A DNA stretch of 64,000 bases from Georgenia sp. EYE_87 (GTDB lineage: Bacteria; Actinomycetota; Actinomycetes; Actinomycetales; Actinomycetaceae). This document shows positions 21,277 through 29,732 of this stretch, piece after piece; position 1 is the stretch's first letter, and each line of letters starts with the position of its first letter. The position numbers and the translations under genes are program-made. The notes below the pieces were generated by a model. The model was not told the DNA's origin. It saw only the letters and a program-made list of their open reading frames with translations, and ran no database searches. The stretch is taken from contig NZ_JAHXNL010000019.1 in the NCBI RefSeq assembly GCF_023148685.1, forward strand, positions 1 to 64,000, given 5' to 3'.

Positions 21277-23034
21277 CTAGGCCTGCGCGGCGACGTCCTC
21301 CAGCAGCTCGGGGTGCGCCGCGACGAGGGTCAGCCAGCCGCCGGAGAGGTTGCGGGCGTCGAGCCCCACGCCGCGCAGGATCCGCGTGGCCAGGTAGGAG
21401 CGGACGCCCGAGGCGCAGTGCACGCTGACCGGCCTGCCGCCGGCGGCGTCGCGCACCTCGTCCAGGCGGTCGCGCAGCTCGGTGTGCGGGACGTTCAGGG
21501 CGCCGTCGAGGTGTCCGCCCGCGAACTCCCCGCGCGAGCGCACGTCGAGGACCAGGCTGCCCGCGCGGACCTCCGCCAGGTCCCACGCCTGCCACTGGGG
21601 CATGGTGCCGTCGAGGACGTTCTGCGCCACGAAGCCCAGCATGTTCACCGGATCCTTCGCGGAGCCGAAGGGCGGCGCGTACGCGAGCTCCAGCTCGGCG
21701 AGGTCGTCCGCCCCCATCCCGGCCCGCAGGGCGGTCGCGAGGACGTCGATGCGCTTGTCCACCCCGGCGCGGCCCACGGCCTGCGCGCCGAGCAGCGCCC
21801 CGTCCGGGGCGAAGCTGGCGACGATGTGGACCTGCTCGGCCCCCGGGTAGTAGCCCGCGTGGTGGCCCGGGTGGACGTGCACGACCTCGTGGTCGATCCC
21901 CGCCCGACGCAGCGTGGCCTGGTTGGCGCCGGTGACGGCGGCCGTCAGGCCGAACACGCGCACGATGGCGGTGCCCAGCACCGGGGCCTGCGGCGTGGTG
22001 CGCCGCCCGCAGATGGAGTCCGCCGCGCGGCGTCCCTGACGGTTCGCCGGCCCGGCGAGCGGCACGGGGCCGGTGGCCCCGGTGACGGCCTGGACGACCT
22101 CGACGGCGTCACCCACCGCCCAGATGTGCGGGTCCGAGGTGCGCTGGTCGCCGTCGACGCGGATGGCGCCGGAGGCGCCGAGGTCCAGCCCCGCCTCGCG
22201 GGCCAGCGCGGAGGCGGGCCGCACGCCGACGTTGACCACCACGAGGTCGGCGGTCACCTCGGTGCCGTCCGAGAGGGTGACGACGACGGGACCCGCCGGG
22301 CGGACCGTCTCCTCCCCGTAGTCCGCGGCCTCCGCGGCCGGGCGGATCCTCTCGGCCCCGACCCCGAGGTGGAGCCGGACGCCGTGGGAGGTGAGCTCCT
22401 CCGCGAGCAGCGGGGCGAGCTCGTCGTCGAGGGGTGGCAGCACGTGGTCGGCGAGCTCGACGACGTGGACGGTGAGGCCCCGGGCGGCCAGCGCCTCGAC
22501 GGCCTCGAGCCCGATGAACCCGGCCCCGACGACGACGGCGGTCGGCGGCTCGCCGGCCCGCTCGCCGTCGTCCCGGCTCGCGAGGAGCCCGTCCACGGTG
22601 GCGCGCAGCGCGTCGACGTCGGGCACCACCCGCAGCGCGTGCACGGCGGGGTGGTCGAGGCCCTCGACCGGCGGGCGCACCGCGGTGGCTCCGGGGGCGA
22701 GCAGCAGCGCGTCGTACGGCTGGCGGTACGTGCGCTCCGCGGTCCGGACGGTGACCTCCCGCGCGCCCCGGTCGATCCCGGTGACCCGGTGCCCGGTGCG
22801 CACGTCGAGGTTCAGGGTCGACGCCAGGGTGGCGGGGGTGTGCAGGAGCAGGGCGTCGCGCCGGTCGATCTCGCCGGAGAGGTGGTACGGCAGGCCGCAG
22901 TTGGCGAAGGAGACGAAGTCCCCCTGCTCGAGCACCACGATGTCGGCGTGCTCGTCGAGCCGCCGGGCGCGGGCCGCGGCGCTCATGCCGCCGGCCACGC
23001 CGCCCACGACGACGATGCGCCGGGAGGCGGTCAC
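21277..23034 (-). CDS. CoA-disulfide reductase with C-terminal rhodanese domain
   Basis: 585 aa flavoprotein. Residues 1-450 are a pyridine nucleotide-disulfide oxidoreductase with FAD motif GGVAGG, the single active Cys46 in NCGLPY, a second nucleotide site (VVVGAGFIGLE) and a C-terminal dimer domain. Residues about 480-585 are a rhodanese with active Cys in HCASGVRS. Fusions of this type reduce CoA persulfide or polysulfide. The GTG start overlaps the stop of the rhodanese gene upstream, so both respond to the operator at 23452. Confidence 0.92.
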   Translation of the reverse strand: MTASRRIVVVGGVAGGMSAAARARRLDEHADIVVLEQGDFVSFANCGLPYHLSGEIDRRDALLLHTPATLASTLNLDVRTGHRVTGIDRGAREVTVRTAERTYRQPYDALLLAPGATAVRPPVEGLDHPAVHALRVVPDVDALRATVDGLLASRDDGERAGEPPTAVVVGAGFIGLEAVEALAARGLTVHVVELADHVLPPLDDELAPLLAEELTSHGVRLHLGVGAERIRPAAEAADYGEETVRPAGPVVVTLSDGTEVTADLVVVNVGVRPASALAREAGLDLGASGAIRVDGDQRTSDPHIWAVGDAVEVVQAVTGATGPVPLAGPANRQGRRAADSICGRRTTPQAPVLGTAIVRVFGLTAAVTGANQATLRRAGIDHEVVHVHPGHHAGYYPGAEQVHIVASFAPDGALLGAQAVGRAGVDKRIDVLATALRAGMGADDLAELELAYAPPFGSAKDPVNMLGFVAQNVLDGTMPQWQAWDLAEVRAGSLVLDVRSRGEFAGGHLDGALNVPHTELRDRLDEVRDAAGGRPVSVHCASGVRSYLATRILRGVGLDARNLSGGWLTLVAAHPELLEDVAAQA

Positions 23035-23426
23035 CGGCGCACCGCCCCGCCCGCGCGCTGCCAGGCGCCGATGCCGCCGGAGACGCTCGTGGCGTCGAAG
23101 CCGAGCGCGCGCAGCTGCTTCGCCCCCGTGCGCGAGCGCATGCCCGAGGCGCACATGACGACGACGGGCCGGTCCTTCGACAGGCGACGCGCGCCCTTCT
23201 CGACGTCGGCGAGCGGGATGTGCACGGCCTGCGGCGCGTGGCCGGACCGCCACTCGGCCTTCTCGCGCACGTCGACGAGGCTCGCACCCTCGCGGACGAG
23301 CTCCACGGCGCGCGTCGCGGTCACGGTGGAGCCCAGACGCCCGTCGGACGAGCCTGCGAAGAGGGCTCTGAGCCGGTCGAGCAGGGAGGGGGACGCGGAG
23401 GGCGGCGGGGTGGGGGATGAGGTCAT
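23031..23426 (-). CDS. Rhodanese-domain sulfurtransferase
   Basis: 131 aa: a short Ser/Pro-rich N-terminus, then one rhodanese domain with the active Cys92 in CASGMRSR. That loop resembles YgaP/PspE-type rhodaneses, which bind persulfide sulfur. AAAGGAA lies seven bases before the ATG. First gene of a two-gene operon with the CoA-disulfide reductase, transcribed from a promoter carrying the CstR-type site 23452-23467. Confidence 0.9.
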   Translation of the reverse strand: MTSSPTPPPSASPSLLDRLRALFAGSSDGRLGSTVTATRAVELVREGASLVDVREKAEWRSGHAPQAVHIPLADVEKGARRLSKDRPVVVMCASGMRSRTGAKQLRALGFDATSVSGGIGAWQRAGGAVRR

Positions 23427-23451
23427 GGGAGTTCCTTTCGTCGTCGTCTCA

Positions 23452-23467
23452 ATACCCATGGGGGTAT
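23452..23467. promoter_or_regulatory. CstR/CsoR-type operator 1
   Basis: ATACCCATGGGGGTAT, an inverted repeat 26 bases before the rhodanese start. The same RTACCC-N4-GGGTAK layout occurs at 23565, 24459 and 27492, each in front of a sulfur gene or the regulator gene itself. G-tract inverted repeats flanked by AT are how CsoR/CstR family operators look. Confidence 0.82.
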
Positions 23468-23564
23468 CAATATTCCCGGACGTGCGCGGCCGTCCGCCGG
23501 GACCACGGTCCCGCCTCACCCGGCGCCGGGCGAGCGGTGGGAATACGCTGGGCCCTGTGGTGTT

Positions 23565-23580
23565 ATACCCCCCAGGGTAT
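23565..23580. promoter_or_regulatory. CstR/CsoR-type operator 2
   Basis: ATACCCCCCAGGGTAT, 26 bases before the thioredoxin ATG at 23606. With operator 1 it sits in the divergent promoter region 23427-23605, so both transcription units should be repressed together. Confidence 0.82.
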
Positions 23581-23605
23581 GAAACCGAGACCACCGAGGA
23601 GAATC

Positions 23606-23983
23606 ATGTCCACCATCCACCTCACCGAGGACAGCTTCGAGCGCGTCGTCACCCGGCCGGGCATCGTCCTGGTCGACTTCTGGGCCGCCTGGTGCGGTCC
23701 CTGCCGCATGTTCGCCCCGGTCTTCGAGAAGGCGTCCGAGCGGCACCCCGACGTCGTCTTCGCCAAGGTCGACACCGAGGCCGAGCGCTCTCTCGCCGCG
23801 GCGGCCGGCATCACGTCCATCCCGACGCTCATGGCGTTCCGGGACGGCATCCTCGTCTTCTCGCAGCCCGGCGCGCTGCCGGCCGCCGCGCTGGAGCAGG
23901 TCGTCACCGCCGTCCGCGAGCTCGACATGGACGAGGTGCGCTCGCAGCTCTCGTCCCGCCAGCCGGCGTCCTCGGACGCCTGA
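23606..23983 (+). CDS. Thioredoxin
   Basis: 125 aa with the WCGPC active site at 29-33 and the cis-Pro loop (GITSIPTLMAF), so a full thioredoxin fold; there is a 20-residue Ser/Arg-rich tail. The ATG follows GAGGAGAA. Directly behind a CstR-type operator and divergent from rhodanese/CoA-disulfide reductase, it probably reduces protein persulfides or polysulfide rather than serving as the housekeeping thioredoxin (inference from context). Confidence 0.93.
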   Translation: MSTIHLTEDSFERVVTRPGIVLVDFWAAWCGPCRMFAPVFEKASERHPDVVFAKVDTEAERSLAAAAGITSIPTLMAFRDGILVFSQPGALPAAALEQVVTAVRELDMDEVRSQLSSRQPASSDA

Positions 23984-24043
23984 CCCCGCCACCCCGTGAC
24001 CGGTGCGGCGGCAGACGGCCGCTCGCCCGACGAAAGGAAGCTC

Positions 24044-24433
24044 ATGACCTACGGAATCTCCGTCACCCTGGACCAGCCGTTCGACGACGCGGTCGCAGCG
24101 GTCCGCGAGGCGCTCGCCGAGCAGGGCTTCGGCGTCCTCACCGAGATCGACATGGCCGCCACCCTCAAGAAGAAGCTCGACGTGGACATCGCCCCGCAGG
24201 TGATCCTCGGCGCGTGCAACCCGCCGCTCGCCCACCGCGCCCTGCAGGCCGAGGAGTCGATCGGCCTGCTGCTGCCGTGCAACGTCGTCGTCCGGGGAGG
24301 CGACGGCGCCGTCGTGGTCGAGGCGCTGGACCCCCAGGTGATGGTCGGCGTGACCGGCAACGACGCGCTCACCGCCGTCGCGGACGACGCGGCCGCCCGC
24401 CTGCGCGCCGCGCTCGCGGGGCTGACGCCGTGA
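24044..24433 (+). CDS. DUF302 family protein
   Basis: 129 aa covering the whole DUF302 fold, beginning MTYGISVTLDQPFDDAVAAV and containing the conserved ILGACNPPLAHRAL and LLPCNVVV segments, with two Cys about 28 residues apart. It is soluble. DUF302 has no firmly known biochemistry; members recur near rhodaneses and thioredoxins. AAAGGAAG lies five bases before the ATG. It is 60 bases after thioredoxin and likely shares its transcript and operator 2. Confidence 0.87.
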   Translation: MTYGISVTLDQPFDDAVAAVREALAEQGFGVLTEIDMAATLKKKLDVDIAPQVILGACNPPLAHRALQAEESIGLLLPCNVVVRGGDGAVVVEALDPQVMVGVTGNDALTAVADDAAARLRAALAGLTP

Positions 24434-24458
24434 GCGCCGCGCCGCACGATCGCCCCGA

Positions 24459-24474
24459 GTACCCGGCCGGGTAT
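24459..24474. promoter_or_regulatory. CstR/CsoR-type operator 3
   Basis: GTACCCGGCCGGGTAT, 30 bases before the regulator start at 24505. It suggests that the regulator controls its own synthesis separately from the thioredoxin-DUF302 transcript. Confidence 0.8.
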
Positions 24475-24504
24475 CCTGGGGAGCAGCGACACGGAGGAGG
24501 CGGC

Positions 24505-24768
24505 ATGGAGCTCGACCCGGCGGACATGGGCAAGGTCATCAACCGCCTCAAGCGCGCGCAGGGGCAGCTCGCGGGCGTCCTGCGCATGCTGGAGGAGGGC
24601 AAGGACTGCGCCGACGTCGTCACCCAGCTATCCGCCGTGAGCAAGGCGCTGGACCGTGCCGGGTTCGCGATCATCGCCTCCGGCATGCGGCAGTGCCTGG
24701 TCGAGTCCGACGGCGAGGAGACCCTCGACGTCAAGAAGCTCGAGAAGCTGTTCCTCTCGCTCGCCTGA
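24505..24768 (+). CDS. CsoR/CstR-family persulfide-type repressor
   Basis: 87 aa, all-helical DUF156/CsoR fold: INRLKRAQGQLAGVLRML is the family signature. Cys35 and Cys64 correspond to the two sensing cysteines. The His that copper-sensing CsoR places four residues before the second Cys is replaced by Gly60, as expected for CstR-type proteins that form di- and trisulfide links rather than bind Cu(I). The 16-bp sites in front of sulfur genes support this. The ATG follows ACGGAGGAGG. Confidence 0.88.
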   Translation: MELDPADMGKVINRLKRAQGQLAGVLRMLEEGKDCADVVTQLSAVSKALDRAGFAIIASGMRQCLVESDGEETLDVKKLEKLFLSLA

Positions 24769-24775
24769 TCCAGCC

Positions 24776-24791
24776 TTCACACGATCTTCAC
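24776..24791. promoter_or_regulatory. Direct repeat, probable response-regulator box
   Basis: TTCACACGATCTTCAC contains two TTCAC units 11 bases apart, one DNA turn, the arrangement bound by OmpR/PhoB-type dimers. It lies 83 bases before the secreted-protein gene and upstream of the two-component genes, so it is a good candidate for their autoregulation (inference). Confidence 0.6.
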
Positions 24792-24873
24792 CGAGCCGCT
24801 CGCACGGGCGACACGCGCCCGCGCGACGCTGGTACCAGCCGGGAGGACCCGGGGACCGACGAAGGTGATGATG

Positions 24874-25197
24874 ATGAGGACGGCAGTGCGACGGTCGCTG
24901 GTGGCCGTGGGTCTCGCGGCGGTGATCGGGGTGCCGGGGGTGGCCTTCGCGACCACCGAGGTGACGCCGGACCCCGAGCCCACCGTCCAGCAGGACGGGC
25001 CGCCCCCGTGGGCGCCCGAAGAGTGCCAGGAGATGTGGGACTCGGAGGAGATGCAGGCCCTCCGTGAGGAGCACCGGACCGAGATGCAGGAGCACCGCGA
25101 CGGCACGGGCGCCGGCGGCACGCACCGCCACGGTCTCGGCCCCGGTGCGGGCCACGGCCCGATGGCGGGCCACATGTGGGATGGTGCCTCCAGCTGA
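24874..25197 (+). CDS. Small secreted Met/His/Glu-rich protein
   Basis: 107 aa. A Sec signal (MRTAVRRSLVAVGLAAVIG, cleavage after VAFA near residue 26) precedes a mature part of about 80 residues rich in Glu, Met and His: PEECQEMWDSEEMQ, EEHRTEMQEHRD, THRHG, GHGPMAGHMW. That composition suggests metal binding in the cell wall, and one Cys is present. Upstream in-frame GTG/ATGs at 24865-24871 exist, but the fourth fits the GAAGG site best. No known family recognised. Confidence 0.75.
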   Translation: MRTAVRRSLVAVGLAAVIGVPGVAFATTEVTPDPEPTVQQDGPPPWAPEECQEMWDSEEMQALREEHRTEMQEHRDGTGAGGTHRHGLGPGAGHGPMAGHMWDGASS

Positions 25198-25257
25198 ACG
25201 GATGGCCGGCCGGGTCGCCCGCAGGGCGGCCCGGCAACCTGCGTGTGAGGGGCTGAG

Positions 25258-25947
25258 ATGGCACGGCGGATCCTCGTGGTCGACGACGAGGCGGGCATCC
25301 GGCGCGTGCTCCGCGGGTACCTCGAGGCCGACGGCCTCGAGGTGACCGAGGCCGCGAGCGGGGAGGCCGCCGTGGCGCAGGTGCGCGCCGGGTCGCCCGA
25401 CCTCGTCCTGCTCGACGTCATGCTGCCCGACGTCGACGGCATCGAGGTCCTGCGCCGGATCCGCACCTTCTCCGACGTCTACGTCGTCCTCGTCACCGCC
25501 CGCGCCGAGGAGACGGACAAGCTCGTCGGCCTCGCCGTCGGCGCCGACGACTACGTGACCAAGCCCTTCAGCCCCCGTGAGGTGGCCGCCCGCGTCAAGG
25601 CGGTGCTGCGCCGCGGCCGCACCCCGGGGGCTCAGTCCGACCGGATCGTGCTGGACGGCCTCACGGTGGACCTGGCCGGCCGGGAGGTCGACGTAGGCGG
25701 CCGGCGCGTCGCGCTCTCGGCGCTCGAGTTCGACCTGCTGGCGTCGCTCGCCGGGTCCCCGGGCCGCGTCTTCTCCCGGCGCCAGCTCCTCGAACGCGTC
25801 TGGGGCTACGACTTCTACGGCGACGAGCGCGTGGTCGACGTCCACGTCCGCAACCTGCGCAAGCACCTCGGCGACGACGCCGCGGCGCCGCGCATCGTCG
25901 GCACCGTGCGCGGCGTCGGGTACAAGTGTCTGCTGGAGCCCCGGTGA
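25258..25947 (+). CDS. OmpR/PhoB-family response regulator
   Basis: 229 aa: receiver domain 1-120 with acidic pocket (VVDDE), phospho-acceptor Asp in LLDVMLP, Thr in VTARA and Lys in TKPF, then a winged-helix DNA-binding domain (about 130-226, ERVWGYDF and VDVHVRNLRKHLG). Its stop overlaps the GTG of the kinase gene. Together with the secreted protein upstream it forms a three-gene block; the TTCAC direct repeat at 24776 is the probable target. Confidence 0.95.
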   Translation: MARRILVVDDEAGIRRVLRGYLEADGLEVTEAASGEAAVAQVRAGSPDLVLLDVMLPDVDGIEVLRRIRTFSDVYVVLVTARAEETDKLVGLAVGADDYVTKPFSPREVAARVKAVLRRGRTPGAQSDRIVLDGLTVDLAGREVDVGGRRVALSALEFDLLASLAGSPGRVFSRRQLLERVWGYDFYGDERVVDVHVRNLRKHLGDDAAAPRIVGTVRGVGYKCLLEPR

Positions 25948-27020
25948 ACCGACTCTGGGTGCGGCTGCTGCTCAGCCACGCCGTCGTCGCGGTGGTCGCG
26001 GGCCTGACCGCCTACCTCGTCGTCCGGGTCGTGGCCCCCCAGCTCTACGACCACGAGGCGCGGATGATGGCCGGGCACGGGATGCTCGCGGGCCGGGGCA
26101 TGCGGGCCGTCGCCGTCGCCGCCATGAACAACGCGCTGCTGATCGGCGTCCTCGCGGGGGTCGCGGCCGCACTCGTCGCCGGGGCGTACGGCGCCCGCCG
26201 CATCATGCTCCCGCTGGAGGCGGTCAGCAGCGCCACCCACCAGCTGGCCGCCGGGCGCTACGACCAGCGGGTGGCGCTGCCGCGCGAACGCGAGCTCGCG
26301 GCGGTCGCCGAGGACGTCAACACGCTGGCCGAGCGGCTGGCCGAGACCGAGGCGCGGCGCGTGCGGCTGATCGGCGAGGTCGCGCACGAGATGCGCACCC
26401 CCCTGACGGTCCTCGACGGGTACGTGGAGGGTCTGGTGGACGGGGTCTTCGCCCCGGGGCCGCAGGTTCTCGACGAGATGTCCGCGGAGGTGCGCCGGCT
26501 CCGCAGGCTCGCCGAGGACCTCAGCGCGCTGTCCCGCGCGGAGGAGGGCCGGCTCGACCTCCGGCCGGTCGAGACCGACCTCGCCCGCGTGGCCGCCGCG
26601 GCCGCCGAACGGCTGCGCCCGCAGGTGGAGGACGCCGGCGTGGAGCTGGCCGTGGAGGCGGGGCCCCCGGTCCCGCTCCGGGGCGATCCCGACCGGCTCG
26701 CCCAGGTGGTGACCAACCTCGTGGGCAACGCGCTGGCCGCGACGCCTGCCGGCGGGCGGATCGTGGTGCGGGCCGCGCACCGTGACGGCCAGGCGCAGGT
26801 CGAGGTGGCCGACACCGGCGTCGGGCTCGCGGAGGCGGACCTCGACCGCGTCTTCGAACGCTTCTACCGGGTGGGCCCGCGCGCGGGCTCGGGCATCGGC
26901 CTGACCATCTCCCGCAAGATCGCGGAGGCGCACGGTGGCACGCTCGCCGCGGCCTCCGCCGGCCCCGGGCGCGGCGCGACCTTCACGCTCCGGGTGCCCG
27001 CCGGGGCGCCCGGCGCCTGA
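25944..27020 (+). CDS. Sensor histidine kinase with Met/His-rich sensor loop
   Basis: 358 aa. Two membrane helices (about 7-29 and 62-82) enclose a short external loop, APQLYDHEARMMAGHGMLAG followed by RGMRAVAVAAM, crowded with His and Met as in metal-sensing kinases. Then HAMP, the H box VAHEMRTPL, N box NLVGNALAATP and G boxes DTGVGLAE and GSGIGL. The paired secreted protein has similar residues, so both may see the same cation such as Cu(I) or Ag(I); the ligand is inferred only. Confidence 0.93.
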   Translation: MNRLWVRLLLSHAVVAVVAGLTAYLVVRVVAPQLYDHEARMMAGHGMLAGRGMRAVAVAAMNNALLIGVLAGVAAALVAGAYGARRIMLPLEAVSSATHQLAAGRYDQRVALPRERELAAVAEDVNTLAERLAETEARRVRLIGEVAHEMRTPLTVLDGYVEGLVDGVFAPGPQVLDEMSAEVRRLRRLAEDLSALSRAEEGRLDLRPVETDLARVAAAAAERLRPQVEDAGVELAVEAGPPVPLRGDPDRLAQVVTNLVGNALAATPAGGRIVVRAAHRDGQAQVEVADTGVGLAEADLDRVFERFYRVGPRAGSGIGLTISRKIAEAHGGTLAAASAGPGRGATFTLRVPAGAPGA

Positions 27021-27033
27021 CCGCGGCGCCCGC

Positions 27034-27407
27034 TCAGGCGGGAGCGCGGCGGCCCGCGGCGTCGAGCGCCCGGCGCGCCACCGCCGTCGGGTCGCCGACC
27101 GTGGGGGTGAGCCCGTCGAAGTCGCCGCGGAGCCCTTTCAGGGCGGTGCGCTCGGCGTCGATCTCGCGCCGGGTCCGCACGTTCAGCCGGCGGAGCACGG
27201 CGAGCGGCGGGCACCACCCCTGCACGGCGTGCTGGAGCAGGAACGCCGGCACGGCGGCGGAGAGCGCGAACCACCCCCGGGAGCGGGTGGCTCCGAGCAG
27301 CAGGCTCACGAGCGTCAGGGCCGCCGCGTTCGCCTCGAGCGTCCGCTCGACGTCCCACTCCTTGTCGAGCTCCTGGAGGCGCCGCGGACGCGGTCGAGCT
27401 CTTCCAC
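27034..27407 (-). pseudogene. Frameshifted DUF2892 (YgaP-like) membrane protein
   Basis: A GTG at 27407 with an excellent site (GAGGAGGAACACC) starts VEELDRVRG. The natural continuation LQELDKEWDVERTLEAN is one frame over, the shift falling at about 27379-27390 in a GC run. The second frame then gives two hydrophobic stretches with QGWCPPLAVLRRL, the mark of the DUF2892 inner membrane domain found with rhodaneses, and ends with EIDAERTALKGLRGDF. It is either a recently broken gene or a one-base sequencing error. Divergent from sqr across operator 4. Confidence 0.72.
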
Positions 27408-27491
27408 GGTGTTCCTCCTCGAAGCGGGGCGGGCGTTACGGGAAAGCCGGTGCTGCCAGGCTAGGGCGGCTCGCTCACCGCCGCGCGCCGA

Positions 27492-27507
27492 ATACCCCCG
27501 GGGGTAG
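27492..27507. promoter_or_regulatory. CstR/CsoR-type operator 4
   Basis: ATACCCCCGGGGGTAG, between the divergent DUF2892 gene and the sulfide:quinone oxidoreductase operon (start 27578). Same spacing and half-sites as the three operators near 23.5-24.5 kb. Confidence 0.8.
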
Positions 27508-27577: not shown

Positions 27578-28825
27578 ATGAAGAGTCTGGTGATTCTGGG
27601 TGCCGGCACGGCCGGGACCATGGTGGCGAACAAGCTGCGCCGCCGACTGCCACGCAAGGAGTGGCGCATCACGGTCGTCGACCGTGACGACGTCCACCTC
27701 TACCAGCCGGGGCTGCTCCTGCTGCCCTTCGGCGTCTACGAGCCGAAGGACCTCATCAGGCCGCGCGACAGATACCTGACCGGAGGCGTGGACCTGGTGC
27801 TGGGCGAGATCGACCGGGTCGAGCCGGGCGAGAACCGGGTGCTGCTGTCCGACGGCCGCGCCCTGGACTACGACCAGCTCGTCATCGCGACGGGGACCTC
27901 GCCGCGGCCCGAGGAGACGCCGGGCATGGCCGAGGGGGAGTGGCGCCGGAGCATCTTCGACTTCTTCACCCTCGACGGCGCCGTCGCCCTGCGGGACAAG
28001 CTCGCCTCCTGGGAGGGCGGCCGGCTCGCCGTCCACGTCACCGAGATGCCCATCAAGTGCCCGGTGGCTCCCCTGGAGTTCACGTTCCTCGCCGACGCCT
28101 TCTTCGAGGAGAGGAAGATGCGCGACAAGGTCGAGATCGTCTACGTGACCCCGCTGGAGGGGCCCTTCACCAAGCCCGTCGCGTCGGCTCACCTGGGCAC
28201 CATGTTCGAGGACCGGCACATCGCCATCGAGCCCGACTTCTACGTCGAGCACATCGACCCGGAGGCGAGGACGCTGGTGTCGATGGACGAGCGCGAGGTG
28301 CCGTTCGACCTCCTCGTGACCGTCCCGCTCAACATGGGCGCCGACTTCGTGGCGCGCTCCGGGCTGGGCGACGAGCTCAACTACGTGCCGGTCGACAAGG
28401 GCACCCTGATCTCCCGGGCGCACGACAACATCTTCGCGGTCGGCGACGCGAGCGACATCCCCGCCTCCAAGGCCGGGTCGGTGGCGCACTTCGAGGCCGA
28501 CGGCTTCGTCAAGAACTTCCTCGACCACATCCACGGCCGCCCGATGACCGACCTGTTCGACGGGCACGCCAACTGCTTCATCGAGTCCGGTCACGGCAAG
28601 GGCCTGCTCATCGACTTCAACTACGACACCGAGCCCCTGCCCGGTGTGTACCCCTACCCGCGGGTGGGCCCGCTGAGCCTGCTCAAGGAGACCCGCGCCA
28701 ACCACTGGGGGAAGCTCGCTTTCCGCCACGTGTACTGGAACGTCCTCCTGCGCGGGCTGCCCATGCCCGTCCCGAACCACATGTCCATGGCCGGCAAGGA
28801 GACCGCCGGCGCGAGCGGAAGGTGA
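27578..28825 (+). CDS. sqr: Sulfide:quinone oxidoreductase-type flavoprotein
   Basis: 415 aa. An N-terminal FAD site (ILGAGTAGTMVA) and the overall SQR/FCSD fold are clear, with a second FAD segment at FAVGDASDIPASKAGSVAHF. Two cysteines, Cys161 (EMPIKCPVAPLEF) and Cys333 (HANCFIESG), sit where SQRs carry the disulfide that takes up sulfide sulfur. The C-terminus has amphipathic segments for membrane attachment. First gene of an operon with TusE- and DsrE-like proteins, behind operator 4. It oxidises sulfide to persulfide and feeds electrons to quinone (family knowledge). Confidence 0.88.
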   Translation: MKSLVILGAGTAGTMVANKLRRRLPRKEWRITVVDRDDVHLYQPGLLLLPFGVYEPKDLIRPRDRYLTGGVDLVLGEIDRVEPGENRVLLSDGRALDYDQLVIATGTSPRPEETPGMAEGEWRRSIFDFFTLDGAVALRDKLASWEGGRLAVHVTEMPIKCPVAPLEFTFLADAFFEERKMRDKVEIVYVTPLEGPFTKPVASAHLGTMFEDRHIAIEPDFYVEHIDPEARTLVSMDEREVPFDLLVTVPLNMGADFVARSGLGDELNYVPVDKGTLISRAHDNIFAVGDASDIPASKAGSVAHFEADGFVKNFLDHIHGRPMTDLFDGHANCFIESGHGKGLLIDFNYDTEPLPGVYPYPRVGPLSLLKETRANHWGKLAFRHVYWNVLLRGLPMPVPNHMSMAGKETAGASGR

Positions 28826-28830
28826 CCACC

Positions 28831-29145
28831 ATGCCCGTCATCGAGATCGGCGCCAAGCCGGTGCACGTCAACGACGAGGGCTTCCTCACGGAGTACGACG
28901 AGTGGGACGAGGACATCGCCAACGTCCTCGCCCAGCAGATCGGCATCGAGATGACCGACGCGCACTGGAAGGTCATCCGGTTCCTCCGGGAGGACTTCCG
29001 GGCCCAGGGCGAGACCCCCACGACCCGGCGGGTCAACACCGTGGGCGGCATCCCCGTCAAGGAGCAGTTCGCCCTCTTCCCCAAGAAGCCCGGCCGGAAG
29101 ATGTCCTACATCGCCGGCCTCCCCAAGCCGCACGGCTGCGTCTGA
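28831..29145 (+). CDS. TusE/DsrC/DsvC-family sulfur carrier
   Basis: 104 aa, beginning MPVIEIGAKPVHVNDEGFL, with WDEDIANVLAQQIGIEMTDAHW typical of TusE/DsrC. The protein ends GCV, so the penultimate Cys that carries persulfide sulfur is present; the second Cys about ten residues earlier, needed for DsrC trisulfide chemistry, is absent. It is therefore TusE-like, a sulfur relay partner rather than a dissimilatory DsrC. Six bases after the sqr stop. Confidence 0.9.
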   Translation: MPVIEIGAKPVHVNDEGFLTEYDEWDEDIANVLAQQIGIEMTDAHWKVIRFLREDFRAQGETPTTRRVNTVGGIPVKEQFALFPKKPGRKMSYIAGLPKPHGCV

Positions 29146-29156
29146 GAGGCACCGCC

Positions 29157-29732
29157 ATGACCACCGAGACCGCACCGCTCATCGTCCCGAGCTTCGACGA
29201 CGACGAGACCGACCGCAAGCTCGCCATCATCTGCTCCAAGGGCACCCTCGACATGGCCTACCCCGGGCTCATCCTCGGCAACGCCGCCCTCGGGGAGGGC
29301 GTGGAGACGCACCTGTTCTTCACGTTCTGGGGCTTCGACATGATCATGAAGTCCCGCGCCCGTGACCTGACGTTCTCACCGGTCGCGAACACGGCGATGC
29401 ACCTGCCGCTCAAGGAGGTGCAACGGCGGGGTCCGCTGTCCCGGATGAAGCTGCCCGACGAGATCCGCATGCCGCAGGCGCTGGCGCCCGCACCTGGCGT
29501 CTCGGCGATGGCGACGCGGATGATGAAGAAGCAGCTGGCCGCCCTGGACGTGCCCGAGGTCCCCGAGTTCCTGGACCAGATCGTCGCCGCCGGCGGGCAC
29601 CTGTGGGCGTGCCGGCTCTCCGCCGACATGTACGACCTCGACGAGTCCGACTTCCGCGACGACATCGAGGGGATCATCTCCGCCGCCGACTTCATCGAGA
29701 TGACGGCCGGGGCGCAGCTGCTGTTCATCTAG
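29157..29732 (+). CDS. DsrE/DsrF-like (DsrE2-type) family protein
   Basis: 191 aa with the DsrE fold (KLAIICSKGTLDMAYPGLIL) and the long insert of DsrE2-type proteins. The conserved Cys near the C-terminus, in HLWACRLSADMYDL, fits persulfide transfer; FFTFWGFDMIM gives one strongly hydrophobic stretch. Last gene of the sqr operon, 11 bases after the TusE-like gene. It probably passes SQR-derived sulfur between carriers (inference from the family and operon). Confidence 0.88.
   Translation: MTTETAPLIVPSFDDDETDRKLAIICSKGTLDMAYPGLILGNAALGEGVETHLFFTFWGFDMIMKSRARDLTFSPVANTAMHLPLKEVQRRGPLSRMKLPDEIRMPQALAPAPGVSAMATRMMKKQLAALDVPEVPEFLDQIVAAGGHLWACRLSADMYDLDESDFRDDIEGIISAADFIEMTAGAQLLFI

Follow-up and report, generated by a model that had tools for sequence, protein, structure and literature searches.

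A predicted CstR-type sulfane-sulfur regulon split over three contigs in Georgenia sp. EYE_87, and an operator spacer that parallels sulfur or copper sensing

Sequence analysis of a 64,000-nucleotide stretch of the Georgenia sp. EYE_87 genome (contig NZ_JAHXNL010000019.1, positions 1 to 64,000; hereafter the window) revealed a group of sulfur-handling genes and a CsoR/RcnR-family regulator gene, among which lie four exact copies of the palindrome RTACCC-N4-GGGTAK (Table 1). The units concerned encode rhodaneses, a reductase-rhodanese fusion, a thioredoxin, a DUF302 protein, a sulfide:quinone reductase (SQR) and two sulfur carriers. The regulator very probably acts as a CstR-type repressor which, from TACCC-N4-GGGTA operators, would silence a split sulfane-sulfur regulon induced by persulfide or polysulfide. 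This reading was built on the sites and their conservation, on the finding that across the genome they occur only beside sulfur genes, on the residues of the regulator and on the association of its protein class with the N4 spacer. The genome is a draft of 38 contigs and 4.35 Mb (99.17% complete); C, G and L numbers below designate contigs, genomes and loci.

Table 1. Operators and sulfur-related genes of the window, with the exact operator matches found elsewhere in the genome.
Feature	Position	Strand	Context and evidence
Operator 1, ATACCCATGGGGGTAT	23452..23467	.	before rhodanese / reductase-rhodanese (- strand); exact motif; same position in two congeners
Operator 2, ATACCCCCCAGGGTAT	23565..23580	.	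before thioredoxin-DUF302-regulator; exact motif; same position in two congeners
Operator 3, GTACCCGGCCGGGTAT	24459..24474	.	30 bp upstream of regulator ATG; exact motif
Operator 4, ATACCCCCGGGGGTAG	27492..27507	.	before SQR-DsrC-DsrE2; exact motif; in 23-column invariant block (two congeners)
FAD/NAD(P) disulfide reductase fused to rhodanese domain	21277..23034	-	PF07992, PF02852, PF00581; TIGR03385 below cut-off
Single-domain rhodanese	23031..23426	-	PF00581
Thioredoxin	23606..23983	+	TIGR01068, 105.3 bits, cut-off 96.8
DUF302 protein	24044..24433	+	PF03625
CstR-like repressor, 87 aa, Cys35, Cys64, Gly60	24505..24768	+	PF02583
Type III SQR, Cys161 and Cys333	27578..28825	+	NF049943, 625.8 bits, cut-off 525
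DsrC/TusE-type sulfur carrier, penultimate Cys only	28831..29145	+	PF04358, TIGR03342
DsrE2-type sulfur carrier, two conserved Cys	29157..29732	+	PF13686; NF047629 below cut-off
Genome site	C3:57380		in front of rhodanese-YgaP-TM gene
Two genome sites	C34:61622 and 61816		divergent region: rhodanese / dioxygenase-rhodanese / TauE on one side, 38-residue Cys-rich gene on the other

The four operators are all the exact matches to RTACCC-N4-GGGTAK in the window, where dinucleotide shuffles gave an expectation of 0.01, and an earlier note on this DNA had placed them correctly. A window scan for TACCC-Nk-GGGTA with k from 0 to 12 returned matches at k=4 only, at these same four places, and the spacing is TAC-X8-GTA (equal to N4) at 4/4 sites and not the TAC-X9-GTA of copper-type operators. 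Degenerate and one-mismatch versions of the motif, which gave nine matches in the window against 3.3 expected, were dropped and the exact motif was used instead. Comparison with two congeners (L271 and L272, which are close to each other, with 93-98% identical DNA) showed that the locus is syntenic from the reductase-rhodanese to the DsrE2 gene and that none of the four operators, the asymmetric ATACCCCCGGGGGTAG before SQR among them, has changed its place; at operator 3 the arms are retained and the spacer is variable. In the SQR promoter of the window and both congeners, an unbroken block of 23 invariant columns surrounds operator 4, the next longest run being 8 columns. One congener CstR-like copy (G119:C2:58740-58952) is broken by a stop codon, with intact copies in the same genome.

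The genome-wide motif scan revealed seven exact places in 4.35 Mb, compared with one for the reversed control pattern; all seven adjoin sulfur genes, and they are spread over three contigs. With one mismatch allowed there was hardly any excess (26 matches versus 23 for the reversed control). Rewriting the ends as RTACCC..GGGTAY added a single exact place, C33:42337, which lies within a long reading frame that looks helicase-like by eye; because of this position inside a coding frame it was taken as chance and rejected as a regulon site. The window and genome scans, together with the family profiles and congener synteny, bore out the proposal of one shared operator beside the named sulfur genes and the regulator gene. 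Judged from these predicted sites, the system is a split cst-type sulfane-sulfur regulon, with four of its operators in the window and the remaining three on two further contigs of the draft assembly, and not the one contiguous cst locus of the Staphylococcus type.

Behind the N4 operators on C34 lies a unit encoding a rhodanese, a metallo-beta-lactamase-fold dioxygenase of 459 amino acids with two rhodanese stretches, and TauE. The dioxygenase shares 28% identity with Staphylococcus CstB over 433 aligned columns, measured against the 417 available residues of a cut CstB sequence. A CstB-type dioxygenase-rhodanese is thus found behind the shared operator, its operon being preceded by two N4 sites in the divergent region, and the statement in the earlier note that no CstB dioxygenase was seen does not hold for the genome, where the genome-wide site scan located this gene and TauE on another contig. 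In the units examined, to which the search was confined, rhodanese and DsrE2 are separate genes and no CstA-type rhodanese-TusA-DsrE2 fusion is present.

The regulator matched PF02583 (CsoR/RcnR, DUF156 fold) with 87.3 bits against a cut-off of 22.8. Its two cysteines, Cys35 and Cys64, are conserved without exception in an alignment of 17 sequences that includes the regulator, and Gly60 stands where copper sensors have His, so that the Cys-His-Cys set of copper ligands is lacking. Two conserved cysteines without the copper-ligand His, combined with TAC-X8-GTA sites at sulfur genes and at its own gene, agree with the CstR-type assignment made earlier. The opposite assignment, a CsoR-type copper sensor on copper operators, draws on the common protein family (PF02583), on a weak match to the NCBIfam model of the copper regulator RicR (44.3 bits, cut-off 175) and on the TACCC/GGGTA arms, which are common to CsoR sites (PMC3902906). 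Position 60 speaks against it, with His in 30/30 distinct copper-type proteins and none here. A genome search for CsoR-family genes found two, the window repressor without His and a separate His-bearing CsoR on C36, whose promoter carries GTACCCCCAGGGGGTAT with N5 spacing (TAC-X9-GTA). Copper genes, moreover, are located at N5 sites: in 20 family N5 loci, CsoR/CopZ/CopA matches occurred in 11, CstR-like matches in 2 and none of the queried genes in 7. Predicted residues and spacer length both speak against the copper alternative, which we regard as highly improbable. The genome has three N5 sites, of which C23:307287 and C36:122679 (L021, L022) lie beside copper-type genes (a P-type ATPase-like match with a Cu,Zn-SOD-like frame recognized by eye, and CsoR with a CopZ-like gene), while C4:66010 (L020) had no copper-query match.

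The association between protein class and spacer was also observed across the family. Of 151 family genomes, 81 have a close CstR homologue, and 76 of these carry the exact N4 palindrome, compared with 16 of the 70 that lack such a homologue (Fisher, 1e-20); closeness was defined as E<=1e-12, a threshold chosen once the search results were known, and three other cuts gave Fisher values from 9e-19 to 8e-12. Further CstR loci were taken from among the matches listed, which provided 80 homologue loci from named genomes, dominated by Arthrobacter-type genomes, Nocardioides and Cellulomonas and hence not independent. In 72 of these 80 loci there were 124 N4 sites, with at most two matches for each other spacer from 0 to 14 and at most three for inverted arms, and 121 of the 124 were within 400 bp of a gene from the 17-protein query set. 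The first gene on either side was the regulator (46), a dioxygenase (31), rhodanese-YgaP (25), thioredoxin (16), reductase-rhodanese (16), a small rhodanese (15), a rhodanese (9), a small Cys-rich gene (6), DUF302 (5), TauE (1) or SQR (1); the regulator count is expected because the loci were chosen by their regulator.

Several observations weigh against the proposed CstR regulon. An N4 palindrome is carried by those 16 family genomes without a close CstR, and 5 of the 81 with one have no exact palindrome. In a set of 186 distinct CsoR-family proteins, for which TACC..GGTA sites were counted within 500 bp upstream, the 145 without His included 46 with no site, 4 with only another spacer and 3 with N5. 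The published chemistry also differs between relatives, with a persulfide on one Cys of ScCsoR versus Cys-Cys polysulfide bridges in S. aureus CstR (PMC7533328). Finally, no N4 site lies right before the SQR unit in L139, L274 and L275 (the last being the same as L143). This, and the low number of type III SQR matches in the 80 CstR loci among the matches listed (5, two of them below 30% identity), would fit a narrower regulon in which direct control is limited to the rhodanese/reductase, thioredoxin-DUF302-regulator and dioxygenase units, whereas SQR-DsrC-DsrE2 is controlled otherwise, for instance by the adjacent two-component system. Histidine kinase and response regulator genes indeed lie between regulator and SQR in the window and the two congeners, and in Bacillus licheniformis the control of sqr involves a two-component system in addition to YrkD (PMC9918477). 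The site at 27492, however, is exact and falls inside the longest invariant block of the SQR promoter in three species, and we consider the narrower regulon unlikely.

The predicted sulfur proteins have conserved cysteines. In SQR, Cys161 and Cys333 were found in 5/5 sequences; in DsrC, Cys103 is the sole Cys in 8/8 sequences from 7 loci; and in DsrE2 two Cys are conserved in 8/8, the window's sequence being included each time. Two of the eight DsrC/DsrE2 sequences (L143, L275) represent one locus; over 17 kb, L275, from a relative in the genus, does not differ from a Georgenia thermotolerans locus. The SQR matches the NCBIfam model of the type III selenoprotein subtype well above its cut-off, with Cys and no in-frame stop, and is probably the Cys form of that subtype. 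Dissimilatory DsrC of the two-cysteine type has its second Cys about 10 residues before the penultimate one; the window protein has Cys103 alone and looks like a TusE-like carrier rather than a classic DsrC. As for the reductase, called a CoA-disulfide reductase in the earlier note, the disulfide-reductase domains were recovered, while that identity is insecure (389.7 bits versus a cut-off of 578.8, and a rhodanese domain is present); this architecture is known from NADH-dependent persulfide reductases.

Among known systems, the ScCsoR circuit of Streptomyces coelicolor has the same kind of two-Cys regulator, a 16-bp site with an 8-bp TAC-GTA gap, PDO, TauE, a rhodanese and autoregulation; ScCsoR binds ATACC-N6-GGTAT, requires Cys37 and Cys66 for release by polysulfide, and regulates PDO, TauE and rhodanese (PMC7533328). 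That circuit has four genes in one place and is, according to its authors, unlike SQR-containing circuits (PMC7533328), whereas here the units lie over three contigs and there are added branches outside the published four genes, namely type III SQR/DsrC/DsrE2, thioredoxin-DUF302, reductase-rhodanese and the small Cys-rich family. The suggestion of a distinct actinobacterial version therefore stands for these branches and not for the core circuit, which was already published for S. coelicolor (PMC7533328); the predicted gene composition is a variant of the cst kind with a core known in actinobacteria. The Staphylococcus cst operon comprises CstR, TauE, CstA, CstB and SQR (PMC5480029; also the S. 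xylosus plasmid locus L231). It resembles the present system in its CstR (45% identical over 66 residues), X8 operators, dioxygenase-rhodanese and TauE, and differs in that CstA is a single rhodanese-TusA-DsrE2 fusion, where the present genome has separate rhodaneses, DsrE2 and DsrC; there was no TusA among the proteins scanned, the genome itself not having been searched for it. In B. licheniformis, likewise, the CstR homologue YrkD represses sqr and pdo, elemental sulfur keeps it off its sites and the two-component system NreBC is involved (PMC9918477); NreBC is sulfide-responsive and acts at sqr (PMC9918477), whereas the window's pair matched OmpR-family and BaeS-like models below their cut-offs. 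TTHA1953 of Thermus is also a CsoR-family regulator of sulfur genes, with binding about 10-15 fold weaker when one base more or fewer separates the half-sites (PMC10318464), but it has a 20-bp site, TACNNTACNNNNGTANNGTA, and Sox gene targets, and no NaHS response was seen (PMC10318464). Copper CsoR of S. lividans has the TAC/GTA inverted repeat with C/G tracts and differs in its TAC-X9-GTA spacing, copper ligands and copper efflux genes (PMC3902906).

Taken together, these comparisons suggest a mechanism in which binding, repression, the ligand and every enzymatic step are what we infer. The reduced repressor would occupy the operators and keep the units silent. Upon a rise in persulfide or polysulfide, Cys35 would be modified, by analogy with ScCsoR through persulfidation aided by Cys64, and the repressor would leave the DNA, thereby inducing the units. 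Type III SQR may then oxidise sulfide, the zero-valent sulfur being passed toward DsrE2/DsrC and the rhodaneses; the dioxygenase-rhodanese would convert persulfide to sulfite for export by TauE, and thioredoxin and the reductase-rhodanese would reduce persulfides back to sulfide and thiol.

The 38-residue Cys-rich protein, whose gene adjoins the C34:61816 operator, belongs to a family of about 38-60 residues with the pattern MC-x4-C-x2-C-x-K-x2-W-x-GCG-x-H. It had no Pfam or NCBIfam match, and a search for a solved relative gave no meaningful match (best E 0.19). Relatives occur in 37/80 CstR loci among the matches listed, in 16/30 site-centred family loci (L023-L052) and in 98/151 family genomes, thus also in some without a close CstR. 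For 31 small Cys-rich genes in 30 loci, TACC-N6-GGTA was present within 400 bp upstream of 16, and the other tested spacers were present upstream of none. We propose for it a putative function within this response, as a protein of the sulfane-sulfur or zinc-thiolate kind.

The spacer length separates the sulfur and copper types well beyond this genome. Thirty copper-type loci, 30/30 with His, held 24 N5 sites distributed over 23 of them and a single N11, and N4 was absent. In the 186-protein set, His-bearing proteins had 30 N5, no N4, no other spacer and 11 without a site, and 92 of the proteins without His had N4 (one also with an N3 match), the remainder being as given above (N4 versus N5 by His status: Fisher, 8e-26). 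Twenty loci of this set (L101-L120) had been chosen for carrying an N5 site; without them the counts were 92 N4 and 1 N5 for proteins lacking His, and 0 N4 and 25 N5 for those bearing it (Fisher, 1e-24). A later site-blind set of 29 loci, all lacking His and drawn from other families of the phylum, yielded 27 strict N4 sites spread over 20 loci, together with a single N3 and a single N5.

Ten plasmid loci all showed the expected spacing: X8 in annotated Staphylococcus cstR (two), Lactiplantibacillus, Leuconostoc, Streptomyces, Rhodococcus and Deinococcus, and X9 in Staphylococcus (CsoR-family/P-type ATPase), Pseudonocardia (copper) and Arthrobacter (copper). In five of the ten (L231, L233, L234, L235, L239), matches with different gaps also turned up, in most cases a long way from the regulator; the Leuconostoc locus (L235), however, has an X12 match only 178 bp upstream of the gene and its X8 site 2 kb upstream. 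Eight further plasmid loci comprised three with X8 alone, one with X8 and an X7 match, one with X9 (1 kb downstream of a Rothia regulator), two without a site, one of them copper-type Corynebacterium, and one (Pseudomonas) with only a remote X11 match. A CsoR-family protein on a Lactiplantibacillus plasmid (L283) has Tyr in place of the second sensing Cys, and its locus holds no palindrome of the tested spacings.

With respect to the residues involved, Arg23 accompanies N5 in all 30 His-bearing proteins whose promoter has a site. It does so as well in L310, which lacks the copper His but has Glu19/Arg23 as in copper types and an N5 site, a combination that hints at the residues that may read the spacer. 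One Arg23 protein without His has N4, however, and L112 and L113 have Ala23 with N5, and Arg23 is therefore only a correlate. L112 and L113 (genus g33), without the copper His and with N5 in their own promoters though both genomes hold N4 sites elsewhere, are a real exception to the spacer rule.

A 2011 paper reportedly deals with the paralogous S. aureus CsoR/CstR. The N4/N5 split was stated nowhere in the literature searched (titles, abstract starts and passages), a coverage outside which the main CstR papers fall. Individually, the copper X9 gap (PMC3902906) and the S. coelicolor X8 site (PMC7533328) have been published.

Other features of the window were noted beside these units. Between regulator and SQR lie a small protein rich in His and Met, whose start looks signal-like by eye (24865-25197), and the OmpR-family/BaeS-like two-component pair (25258-27020), for which models matched below their cut-offs. 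L271 and L272 have the pair in the same place, and Kribbella (L127) also has a pair close to its regulator. The window's pair has no N4 site in front of it and was kept as a neighbour and not as a regulon member. A YgaP-TM-like frame on the minus strand (27034-27405) has no obvious in-frame start, its likely N-terminus seemingly continuing in another frame just upstream, and seems to be either broken or an assembly error; it was scanned uncorrected. Elsewhere, the 16-mer ATACCCGACGGGGCGC occurs twice, at 464 and 7018 (6554 bases apart), and may mark a duplicated stretch.

In the present genome, the N4 spacer, 1 bp shorter than that of its copper CsoR site, probably keeps the two regulons apart. 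We lean slightly toward the broader view that one spacer base pair decides between sulfur and copper across the CsoR family, in Actinomycetota and the examined Bacillota plasmids, with TAC-X8-GTA for proteins without His and TAC-X9-GTA for those with it, candidate helix-1 readers being Arg23/Glu19 in copper types versus mostly Ala/Gln in sulfur types, and that this rule exposes the small Cys-rich family as an unrecognised member of the response. The predicted regulon lends that family a sulfane-sulfur context and would tie DUF302 and SQR-DsrC-DsrE2 to persulfide control. Should the spacer rule prove causal, DNA alone could suffice to distinguish sulfur from copper regulons of the CsoR family, and the rule would then offer a clean example of helical register, and not base identity, insulating paralogous repressors from each other.

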